In this document: positions 21,236 through 23,191 of the stretch, in pieces | Numbering within the stretch: the stretch's first letter is position 1 | Layout: the number at the start of each line of letters is the position of its first letter | NCBI RefSeq assembly: GCF_039851975.1 | Contig: NZ_CP156660.1 | Coordinates: forward strand, 2,919,035-2,983,034 | Length of the DNA stretch: 64,000 nucleotides | From: Desulfoscipio sp. XC116 | GTDB lineage: Bacteria > Bacillota > Desulfotomaculia > Desulfotomaculales > Desulfallaceae | Reading direction: 5' to 3' | Made by a program: the position numbers and the translations under genes | Notes under the pieces: model-generated | Database searches by the model: none | Told to the model about the DNA's origin: nothing | What the model saw: the letters and a program-made list of their open reading frames with translations, nothing else

Positions 21236-21520
21236 TTATAATCCCGTGTCAGGAGGAAATTTATTTTTTATGATTTCTCCTCTCTTATTATATATATCAA
21301 ACCCGGTCGGCTGTTTTACACGGTAAACAATTATGCCTATCGGCCCGTTTTCTCTTAAATCATCTGTTATATTAATTAAGTGTACAGCCTGATTTTGAGC
21401 TTGCTTATCGGGGTTTTGTCCCGGCCGGTTCCCTTCATACGGCCATTTCGCAGCTGTGCTTACTACCATAATAATCGCACAGAACAAGACCAAAGCACAA
21501 GTAAATATTAAGAGCTCCAT
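21236..21520 (-). CDS. Single-pass membrane protein, hypothetical
   Basis: A 94-residue protein with an N-terminal membrane helix (MELLIFTCALVLFCAIIMVV) and a hydrophilic remainder with no known motif; the C-terminal 50 residues (LINITDD...GIIVYRVKQPTGFDIYNKRG) look like a small beta-rich domain. I use the ATG at 21520, placed after GAGGGGTG; an in-frame GTG three codons upstream is possible. It stands alone between the terminator before mraZ and a long gene-poor stretch. No family is recognised. Confidence 0.55.
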   Translation of the reverse strand: MELLIFTCALVLFCAIIMVVSTAAKWPYEGNRPGQNPDKQAQNQAVHLINITDDLRENGPIGIIVYRVKQPTGFDIYNKRGEIIKNKFPPDTGL

Positions 21521-21877
21521 CGCTAGCACCCCTCTTTTCCCCGGCCGGCATGTTTACAGATAATCACCAATTAACTTGACAACCGGCGCTTATGATAATT
21601 ACCACCCACACACAACCCTTATAAATTTAAAATTATTTTTCCCTGCACTGTTAATATTTATTTTCCCCATTTCTTTTGATACTTATATATTATGTTATGT
21701 TAACAAAATAATACCTTTTATACATCGCACCCGGGTATGAGTATAAAGGGCGCCCCACTTTGTCTCATTCAATAGAACCCGTTTGGCCTATCTGTTCTCT
21801 AGGCTATGGCTTTAAAATACTTGAACACTACTTACCAATAAGAGACGAAAAGCTTGCATATAATAACCTCCGTTACG
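21521..21877. other. Intergenic stretch with no supported gene
   Basis: This AT-rich region probably holds the promoter of the small gene at 21236-21520 (a minus-strand TTGTCA at about 21575-21580 is a possible -35). A 73-codon plus-strand frame runs through it from 21760 without a ribosome site and continues across the terminator at 21878-21909; I do not call it. Confidence 0.4.
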
Positions 21878-21909
21878 ACAAAAAAGGTGCTAACTTTCGT
21901 TGCACCTTT
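21878..21909 (-). terminator. Rho-independent terminator of the NarL-type gene
   Basis: AAAGGTGC (21883-21890) pairs with GCACCTTT (21902-21909), and on the minus strand a run of Ts follows the stem. It lies about 90 bases after the stop of the regulator at 22000-22698. Confidence 0.75.
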
Positions 21910-21999
21910 ATCCTAGCAAACATGTTTTTTTTAAACATCCACCGTTTGAATGACGTTAAGTATGATTATTACAATATCTAAAGCACCTAAAGTGTGGTA

Positions 22000-22698
22000 T
22001 CATTCATTCATTACATCATCCATATTCACCAAATACTTGTTATGCATTTCAAAAAGAATAACTTTCGTCCTATTTTTTAATCCCAGCTTGCGTAAAATAC
22101 TGCTTACGTGTGTCTTAACCGTAGGTTGACTTATGTAAAGCGCTTTTCCTATCTCCTTATTTGAATAATTCCGCACTATAAGCTTGTATATCTCCAGCTC
22201 CCTGACCGTAAGAGGCAGCCTTCCGCCTGCTTCATAATTTTCCATTTTATCTTCAACGCTCATCTCACAACCGGGCAAGTTCTCATTATTATTAAAAACA
22301 CACTTCAAAGACCATGGCAGACACATTACACCCGCCTTACAAGTTAACTCTATCGCACTAACCAGGTGACAAGGAAGCATAGTTTCAGAGATACAACCGT
22401 CAATTCCCATATTGACTGCGGCACGAACCTCCTCATATGTGCTGCCGGTGCTAAACACAAATACTTTTGTATAAGGACAAACCTTTTTTATCATTTGTAT
22501 TATTGCTGCAACATTTTCTCCCGGTTCTAATCCGTAAAGAATCACATCAGGTTGTATTTGTTGGAGGTTTTTAGCTGTATCCTCTCTGCAGTTGCTCACG
22601 CCAATGATTTCAAAACCCTTATTAGAAGTAAATATAGCAGACAAGCCTTGACGCATAGCCTGGTTGTCGCTTAAAACAAATAGTTGGATTTTATTCAT
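22000..22698 (-). CDS. NarL/LuxR-type regulator with a degenerate receiver
   Basis: The 232-residue protein has a receiver-like domain (1-120) and a C-terminal LuxR helix-turn-helix (about 167-228, LTVRELEIYKLIVRNYSNKEIGKALYIS split over two helices, then QPTVKTHV). The receiver lacks the usual phosphorylation site: where the family has an Asp after the third strand there is Gly56 (DVILYGLEP), and the conserved Lys is Glu105. Control by phosphorylation is therefore unlikely. The ATG at 22698 follows GGAGGCGGGG. Its long leader carries a candidate c-di-GMP-I riboswitch and terminator, so expression rather than phosphorylation may be the input. The target genes are unknown; no sensor kinase is adjacent. 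Confidence 0.85.
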   Translation of the reverse strand: MNKIQLFVLSDNQAMRQGLSAIFTSNKGFEIIGVSNCREDTAKNLQQIQPDVILYGLEPGENVAAIIQMIKKVCPYTKVFVFSTGSTYEEVRAAVNMGIDGCISETMLPCHLVSAIELTCKAGVMCLPWSLKCVFNNNENLPGCEMSVEDKMENYEAGGRLPLTVRELEIYKLIVRNYSNKEIGKALYISQPTVKTHVSSILRKLGLKNRTKVILFEMHNKYLVNMDDVMNE

Positions 22699-22759
22699 AT
22701 ACCCCGCCTCCAAGTAATTCTCCATGTAAATCTGTAAGATATTGCCATATATGCAGCAA

Positions 22760-22800
22760 TAATAAAAGCCGAAGAAAGGCGGAAATTGCCTATCTTCGGC
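22760..22800 (-). terminator. Leader terminator under riboswitch control
   Basis: On the minus strand GCCGAAGA pairs with TCTTCGGC (22793-22800 with 22768-22775), extended by AGGC/GCCT inside, followed by TTTTATTATT. Its 5' arm overlaps the 3' end of the aptamer's P1, so aptamer folding and this hairpin are mutually exclusive. It lies about 60 bases upstream of the regulator's ATG. Confidence 0.8.
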
Positions 22801-22875
22801 AGCCAGTTAGTTAATAAAGCCTTCAATGCAGTTCCTGGCTTTGCGCTCTCCCTTTAAGAAAGATTGCCCTTTCGG
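22797..22875 (-). ncRNA. Candidate c-di-GMP-I (GEMM) riboswitch aptamer
   Basis: The minus-strand leader reads AAGGGCAAT, then a hairpin TCTTTC-TTAAA-GGGAGA, then the conserved GCGCAAAGCCA, then GCCAG closing with CTGGC about 30 bases later, and finally TGCC, which pairs back to GGCA. This order (GGGCA, hairpin, CGCAAAGCC, second arm, TGCC) is that of GEMM class I RNAs sensing cyclic di-GMP. Some positions differ from consensus (AGCGC instead of GACGC; the first loop is not GNRA), so a relative sensing another dinucleotide is possible. Since P1 overlaps the terminator arm, ligand binding should switch the gene on. Confidence 0.6.
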
Positions 22876-23191
22876 TATAGGTATTAGTATTATATCTTCT
22901 TTCTACATTAGTATACCATACTTAGAAGCCGTTTCCAGGGGTAATAAACATTAGCACCATAATAAATTTATTACATAATTTTAAATTATATTACATCATT
23001 TGATCCAATATACTATATTTCTTAATAAAAGTATGTCTTTTCAAGAGAAGTATTAGTCTTTTAAATTATTAATAAGGCAGTACAACCAACATCGCAGCTA
23101 AACTTCCATCACTTTTTCATCAACCATATACAACTATCGGCTTCCACTATCTTAATCCTTTATTGCAGATTTTCAACCAATCTCGACTTTA

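Follow-up and report, generated by a model that had tools for sequence, protein, structure and literature searches.

A c-di-GMP-I-type leader predicted to act as an ON switch, and its conserved pairing with a pseudo-receiver regulator family in Desulfoscipio sp. XC116 and related bacteria

Judging from their sequences, a subtype of the c-di-GMP-I aptamer and a family of pseudo-receiver regulators have mostly stayed together across related bacteria, and the class of the riboswitch has been exchanged within this association. Riboswitches of the c-di-GMP-I class and pseudo-receivers are each already known; the new element is their conserved pairing, in this subtype and this family. The copy described here lies in a stretch of 64,000 nt of contig NZ_CP156660.1 from Desulfoscipio sp. 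XC116 (the window). All coordinates are window positions, and the aptamer, the leader and the regulator gene are all on the minus strand (Table 1). The aptamer, the terminator, the loss of receiver residues, the conservation of the pairing and, in part of the family, a linkage to SipW-like genes were observed directly in sequence. In the preferred reading, which is considered likely as a whole, an ON riboswitch would set the amount of a phosphate-independent pseudo-receiver factor that probably controls matrix genes. When c-di-GMP, a messenger of biofilm formation, is absent, the leader would terminate ahead of the regulator gene. When c-di-GMP is bound, P1 would retain CCGAAGAUAGG, the terminator would be blocked and the LuxR/NarL-type regulator would be made. 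Once made, the regulator would probably be active, or be tuned by an input other than phosphate, and would probably control genes for a secreted or surface matrix of the SipW/TasA-like type.

Table 1. Features of the riboswitch and regulator locus in window coordinates.
Feature	Position	Strand	Details
LuxR/NarL-type regulator gene	22000-22698	minus	232 aa: pseudo-receiver and HTH 162-215
c-di-GMP-I-type aptamer	22789-22881	minus	RF01051 31.5 bits; R1 81.8; R2 72.7; covariation on 18 aptamers
Aptamer G14, equivalent of Vc2 ligand-contact G20	22868	minus	G, not A; mapped via the C22-G45 pair (PMC3764141)
Aptamer A40, equivalent of Vc2 A47	22842	minus	mapped via the C22-G45 pair (PMC3764141)
Aptamer C83, equivalent of Vc2 C92	22799	minus	mapped via the G14-C93 pair and bulged A95 (PMC3764141)
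Intrinsic terminator hairpin	22768-22800	minus	U-rich tail 22759-22767
Candidate promoter	22910-22937	minus	TGGAAA-16-TATACT, TG before the second hexamer
Hairpin AAAGGUGC..GCACCUUU, then Us	21884-21913	minus	likely 3' terminator of the regulator transcript, read by eye

The stop codon of the regulator gene is at 22000-22002. The reading frame is open already from 22725, and the ATG at 22698 is favoured as the start by a GGAGG just ahead of it (-13 to -9). The HTH is of the NarL/FixJ type (Pfam GerE, PF00196, 57.3 bits), and the receiver scored 29.9 bits with Pfam Response_reg, just short of the 30.2 cut-off. An AlphaFold model (mean pLDDT 75, from a four-sequence alignment) predicts a receiver fold and an HTH. 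The PDB structures closest to this model were VraR and LiaR, with NarL at rank 12, and a profile of 18 relatives also ranked chains of the VraR/LiaR type first and NarL after them. Translations read by eye place the gene singly between two blocks, one PHP-type/methionine-synthase-like/patatin-like/Fur-like and the other mraZ/rsmH. The upstream block is common to the closest relative, G003, and partly to G007, G008, G013 and G015 according to sequence clusters; thus the regulators of these five genomes are positional orthologues of the window gene. A 97-aa ORF with a hydrophobic N terminus (21236-21529, minus strand) lies between the regulator and mraZ, and no relative of it was found among the loci compared.

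No family reached its Rfam gathering score across the whole window. At a relaxed threshold, RF01051 matched 22795-22878 with 31.5 bits against a cut-off of 35 (E = 2.2e-4 in 501 bases); the same match had E = 4.3e-4 in a search of the whole genome. The curated score of 35 bits, missed by the window copy, is reached by six loci of the same subtype (35.7-41.8 bits). By its sequence, the window aptamer is a divergent copy of a subtype whose other copies pass the Rfam cut-off. Membership in the c-di-GMP-I-GGC family (RF03167) was rejected, with 27.3 and 26.9 bits in L008 and L039 against a curated 59. Model R1 had the window aptamer in its training set. Against circularity, model R2 was built from 10 relatives, with neither the window nor its nearest relative in the training set, and on the whole genome it ranked the window aptamer first (72.7 bits, E = 1.8e-20), a second site at 931 kb next (70.8 bits) and a third at only 18.6 bits. 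Leaders outside the training of R2 scored 75.3 (L106), 71.0 (L016), 70.3 (L008), 62.7 (L121) and 46.3 bits (L113). The initial annotation had placed a GEMM-like aptamer in the leader and named a GEMM-I covariance search as its check. That search placed the window copy below the cut-off, at the E values given above; the c-di-GMP-I type is supported by the R2 score, the contact residues and the covariation. The annotated feature, 22000-22875, rightly put an aptamer ahead of the gene, but its end omits the 5' strand of P1.

Rfam alone does not suffice to call the subtype absent, because five loci were blank at E <= 1 and R1 finds it in two of them, L106 and L113. At 46-51 bits, R1 does not separate the subtype from ordinary c-di-GMP-I aptamers; this range holds the copies of G030 (51.0 and 46.9) and G021 (48.0), and comparable scores were obtained for L113 (48.1), L026 and L120, of which L113 was placed in the subtype by position and core. 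The G021 copy precedes a pilin-like gene, by reading. In L016 (2210-2411, minus strand), about 110 extra bases are inserted into P2 of the subtype aptamer, which R1 still scores at 69.7 bits. The source genome has five more RF01051 copies that exceed the cut-off, and the genes behind them resemble, by reading, HD-domain, PilB-like, transporter, GGDEF and HD-GYP genes; the GGDEF assignment agrees with the domain search, which found 11 GGDEF matches in this genome.

Helices P1, P2 and P3 have covariation support in 18 aptamers aligned to R1, an alignment that was fitted to the model and is therefore biased in its favour. In this alignment, 91.6% of the cells are paired and 15 of the 26 pairs changed on both sides. 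None of 500 shuffles reached any of five measures, and only 31-45% of the cells were paired when partners were slid by 1-3 columns. P1 is 100% paired, with both sides changed in two distant copies. The subtype is characterized by a P1 of CCUAU/AUAGG, a P2 without a GNRA loop and a short P3, and a near-identical core, CCUAUACCGAA..GGCAAUCU..GAGCGCAAAGCC..GGCUGCCGAAGAUAGG, is found in 12 distinct leaders including that of the window. The GNRA tetraloop is common, not universal, in c-di-GMP-I riboswitches; P2 of the window folds with a UAA loop instead, and P3 is short with its loop unpaired. Because of these two features, affinity may be lower. In Vc1 of V. cholerae, the contact residues are kept and tight binding is not ensured thereby (PMC4744006).

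The conserved set of the c-di-GMP-I class consists of G20, the pair G45-C22, A47-A49, C92, the pair G14-C93 and a bulged A95, with A and G at positions 25 and 42 (PMC3764141). Like Vc2 and Bc1 of RF01051, the window copy is a three-helix aptamer with equivalents of G20, A47 and C92, the C22-G45 pair and an A at the bulge position. It differs from them in its score below the cut-off, in lacking the GNRA loop and in replacing A25-G42 with a Watson-Crick pair, which in the subtype is U-A in 15 of the 18 aptamers and C-G in the other 3. P1 of the subtype is also nearly invariant, unlike that of RF01051, perhaps because it doubles as a terminator arm. We infer that the window aptamer binds c-di-GMP; the equivalents of the three contact residues are invariant in all 12 leaders. 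In c-AMP-GMP variants of GEMM-I, position 20 is an A; its equivalent is G in 12 of 12 leaders, which speaks against assignment to these variants. That the ligand is some other cyclic dinucleotide, such as 3',3'-c-AMP-GMP, is very improbable: variants of the fold with a changed ligand exist (PMC7266159) and the 25-42 pair departs from the standard motif, but the G at position 20 and the exchange with c-di-GMP-II riboswitches in relatives point to c-di-GMP. Decay of the window aptamer, with c-di-GMP binding lost and the terminator alone attenuating a dispensable gene, is also quite improbable. Such decay would agree with a score below the Rfam cut-off, a degenerate P3 and the relative G014, where no aptamer is seen; however, the window and G003 both have intact contact residues, P1, P2 and terminator, and the left-out model R2 still recognizes the window copy.

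The aptamer ends in 12 bases (22789-22800) that double as the 5' arm of an intrinsic terminator, with UUUUAUUAU after the hairpin. The hairpin has -19.7 kcal/mol, and none of 60 shuffles was as good. In the full leader, the fold with P1 enforced is 14.4 kcal/mol less favourable; P1 and the terminator would thus be mutually exclusive, termination would be the default, and the ligand would have to act during RNA synthesis. Because 12 aptamer bases lie within a strong terminator, ligand should turn transcription ON in cells, and the leader is very likely a c-di-GMP ON switch. The overlap between P1 and the terminator arm, as first annotated, is thereby confirmed, and the ON direction predicted from it is supported as a prediction. 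Among the 12 leaders scanned, an overlapping terminator equalled by at most 2 of 60 shuffles occurs in 7; it is weak in L010, L015, L018 and L022, where 15-25 of 60 shuffles were equally good, and none was found in L014.

The candidate promoter ahead of the aptamer is weak, with 9 of 12 matches and 11 such sites in the scanned region against 6.2 expected. Similar stretches are GTATGATATACT in L008 and L009 and GTATGATATAC in L010. Matches to a sigma-H-like promoter consensus, with one mismatch allowed, occur in 7 leaders out of 20, where 0.87 were expected (L012, L015, L016, L017, L018, L022 and L106, 51-100 bases upstream of the aptamer); the same search gave none in the window leader. A palindrome, GTAT(N2-3)ATAC, is located near the promoter in the window (22910-22922) and upstream of the aptamer in L016, L017, L018, L061 and others. 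It has 26 matches in 317 kb, a count in which overlaps are counted double and the window region is present twice, and about half of the matches precede family or partner genes. The palindrome includes TATACT, a -10-like hexamer, in the window clade, and it is possibly an operator of the regulator or merely a -10 element. At the other end of the transcript, the loop of the hairpin at 21884-21913 exceeds the length allowed by the terminator scanner.

A receiver without one or more of DD, D, T and K is called a pseudo-receiver (PMC12548384). The window regulator falls within this definition: it retains two of the five phosphotransfer residues (Asp11 and Ser83) and departs at Ser10, Gly56 and Glu105. 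The last two had been noted in the initial annotation of the NarL-type protein and are real in the translation (QPDVILYG56LEPG and DGCISE105T, numbered from the Met at 22698). The annotation had held that the usual input is lost through them, with an alignment of the receiver across orthologues as the test. Among 23 family proteins, the phosphoacceptor position is Asp in 17, Gly in 3, Asn in 2 and Glu in 1, and Gly56 is confined to the window protein and the two relatives nearest to it. The argument from Gly56 is weakened by this, and Gly56 as the key event was rejected. The other positions favour a lost input nonetheless. The first acidic residue is kept in 0 of 23 proteins, the active-site Thr/Ser in 2 and the Lys in 7 (with Arg in 13); the second acidic residue, as Asp or Glu, is kept in 19, and no protein has more than three of the five active-site residues. 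The losses common to the family suggest that the receiver was degenerate before the Asp was lost, Gly56 being a late step of the window branch. By these residues, the whole family is a pseudo-receiver family.

Independence of the regulator from phosphorylation is, on this evidence, quite likely. With normal Asp phosphotransfer missing, the regulator would probably be active once made, and c-di-GMP would act via its synthesis. It is plausible that a phosphorylation signal has been replaced by c-di-GMP control of synthesis, as first proposed. An alternative is that relatives keeping the Asp are still weakly phosphorylated, so that the riboswitch is a second layer and the window copy a degenerate exception. 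The Asp in 17 and the Lys in 7 of the 23 proteins speak for it, as does the report that phosphorylation can survive losses at DD, T or K (PMC12632262). It is nevertheless unlikely, given that every family member has at most three of the five residues and that no kinase was recognized beside the regulators, by reading and with most neighbours lacking search-based annotation, except for a hybrid in G012. This hybrid is a 951-aa protein (L052:7623-10478), apparently a fusion of ferredoxin-type, histidine kinase and receiver parts, near a family member upstream of which no riboswitch was found.

Four cysteines of the window regulator, Cys74, Cys102, Cys120 and Cys126, are conserved in 23, 19, 22 and 21 of the 23 proteins, respectively, and thus better than Asp56. 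They raise the alternative of a gate with two inputs, where c-di-GMP sets the amount and C74, C120, C126 and often C102 form a redox, metal or Fe-S input that replaces phosphate. In the structure model, C74 is placed ahead of beta4 and C120 at the end of alpha5. An HTH-less pseudo-receiver of about 140-168 aa stands beside many regulators (L045:5527-5991, L048:5252-5713, L061:13349-13777 and others). In the 14 such partner ORFs, taken as those shorter than 175 aa in the loci examined (L041, L056 and L058 being at loci outside the main clade), Cys74 and Cys120 are present in all, and Asp56 and Lys105 are missing throughout. Redox control of pseudo-receivers through Cys has precedents in RitR and Hp1021 (PMC12632262). 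Even so, the conserved cysteines may be structural, and the partner ORFs have Tyr/Phe or another residue at positions 102 and 126, and a two-input gate is regarded as rather unlikely. Its most extended form is similarly doubtful and somewhat more speculative: both inputs would have been exchanged, a c-di-GMP riboswitch of class I or II setting the amount and a C74/C120 redox or metal site with the HTH-less partner setting the activity, as an AND gate for matrix secretion in anaerobes.

The preferred reading, control through synthesis, draws on the pairing of regulator and riboswitch across the family. A profile of 18 relatives was searched against 113 genomes of the class. Matches at E <= 1e-25 occurred in 94 of them, ordinary NarL-type regulators included; the core family was delimited by the gap between 254 and 186 bits and contains 22 genes in 19 genomes. 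The 23 proteins analyzed above are these 22 plus L039, from a MAG contig named Syntrophomonadaceae. The G102 gene (L121), an open frame of 178 aa without HTH, was excluded from the 23, and duplicate loci (L006, the window; L037 and L040, equal to L008; L038 and L041, equal to L009; L117 and L026, together one locus) were each counted once in the family tables. In 16 of the 19 genomes, a c-di-GMP riboswitch is directly upstream of the core-family gene or its tandem set. Fourteen are of the window subtype, three of these found with R1, and two are of c-di-GMP-II (RF01786, 56.1 and 54.9 bits). No riboswitch was found upstream in G012, G014 or G039 by Rfam (E <= 1) or R1. G014, a Gly56 relative, has kept the promoter-like stretch, and in G039 the stretch right upstream of the regulator resembles a transposase gene by eye.

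Twenty lower-scoring NarL-type loci served as controls. A riboswitch was directly upstream of the listed gene in two, class II in G084 (63.8 bits) and the subtype in G102 (62 bits with R1, missed by Rfam at gathering). These two sit within the window clade of the tree and are thus relatives rather than true outsiders. In G090 and G029, a riboswitch precedes the second tandem gene (49.8 and 48.4 bits), and the other 16 loci had no c-di-GMP riboswitch by Rfam or R1. On the tree, of which only 9 of 31 inner branches are well supported, class II requires at least two separate changes. Two unrelated RNA classes with one ligand in the same place are the best evidence, at the level of sequence, that c-di-GMP matters for the regulator.

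Possible targets were sought among SipW-like genes with NF046067 at E <= 1e-8 in 22 genomes, no match exceeding the curated cut-off. Such genes occur in 10 of the 22, and in seven (G004, G007, G008, G029, G032, G084 and G102) one is located 0.2-9.1 kb from the regulator. Of the 8 genomes in which the distance can be assessed, 7 have a match no more than 10 kb from the regulator, the exception being the genome of the window; in G014 and G015 the match is on a different contig from the regulator, whose own contig is just 5.7 kb long. The other 12 genomes, including the closest relative G003, gave no match at this threshold, which implies that matrix secretion is not the sole possible target. Genes for exported proteins lie near the regulator in many relatives. 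In L045, two proteins with SipW-dependent-type signals above the cut-off are neighbours of a SipW-like peptidase (149.7 bits against a cut-off of 190), and one such protein above the cut-off occurs in L057, from a distant relative without the riboswitch; two more candidates tested for this signal (L043 and L047) gave no match. SipW/matrix genes are moderately likely targets in the family.

For the window copy itself, the same targets are proposed more tentatively and with some doubt. A SipW-like or related exported-protein cluster beside the window gene was considered and rejected, as clusters c1, c3 and c4 are absent from L059 and PF12389 had no match in this genome at E <= 0.01. Its sole SipW-like match is 2 Mb from the window gene and 4.9 kb from the second subtype aptamer (L061:14009-14126, minus strand, within L061:8008-14126, which is C1 of the source genome at 925-931 kb). 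The same subtype thus precedes both the regulator and a matrix-like locus in one genome. Behind the second aptamer come a Shine-Dalgarno-like stretch and a frame of 7 codons, at the place that the regulator has in relatives; beyond these are an ORF for an HTH-less pseudo-receiver and three proteins, apparently exported, that resemble, by reading, those of G004. No overlapping terminator better than shuffles was found for this aptamer.

Several known systems resemble parts of this arrangement. VpsT (PDB entries 3kln and 3klo) is a LuxR-type pseudo-receiver regulator that binds c-di-GMP itself through a W[FLM][TS]R motif. The present regulator is like VpsT in type and in its link to c-di-GMP and matrix. 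Direct binding of the VpsT kind was rejected, because the window protein reads W129-S-L-K, most family members have Gly at column 129, and the family profile matches VpsT best over the HTH alone. Of the precedents found, CmrRST of Clostridioides difficile comes closest; in it a c-di-GMP riboswitch is upstream of an operon that includes CmrT, an Asp-less response regulator (Glu53) thought to be active without phosphate (PMC12548384). CmrR and CmrT are of the OmpR family, their operon contains a kinase gene and the system has an invertible DNA switch (PMC12548384), whereas the window regulator is NarL-type with no adjacent kinase recognized. SipW-matrix operons are represented by sipW-bsaABCRSD of C. 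perfringens and SipW/TapA/TasA of B. subtilis (PMC7395162). The family loci likewise have a response regulator alongside a SipW-type peptidase and exported proteins, but C. perfringens has the kinase/regulator pair BsaSR (PMC7395162) and here a pseudo-receiver stands behind a riboswitch. Among the matches listed from the open-licence literature, none linked a c-di-GMP riboswitch with SipW/TasA, and nothing was on point for c-di-GMP riboswitches with Desulfotomaculum response regulators or for SipW in Desulfotomaculum-type genera.

How pseudo-receivers are switched on and off is described as a mystery in a 2025 review, in which evidence for the neutralization of active pseudo-receivers is sparse and control of their availability, for example by synthesis, is named for a few cases (PMC12632262). 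The present family shares with the bacterial pseudo-receivers treated there the missing phosphotransfer residues; it differs in the riboswitch, a word absent from the main text of that review. Since the window copy and others fall below the Rfam cut-off, more copies may be missed elsewhere. The regulator family would represent a repeated and testable natural answer to the control of pseudo-receivers, in which a second-messenger riboswitch sets synthesis and is kept when the riboswitch class changes. Moreover, a c-di-GMP route to SipW-type secretion is suggested for Desulfotomaculia-like bacteria.
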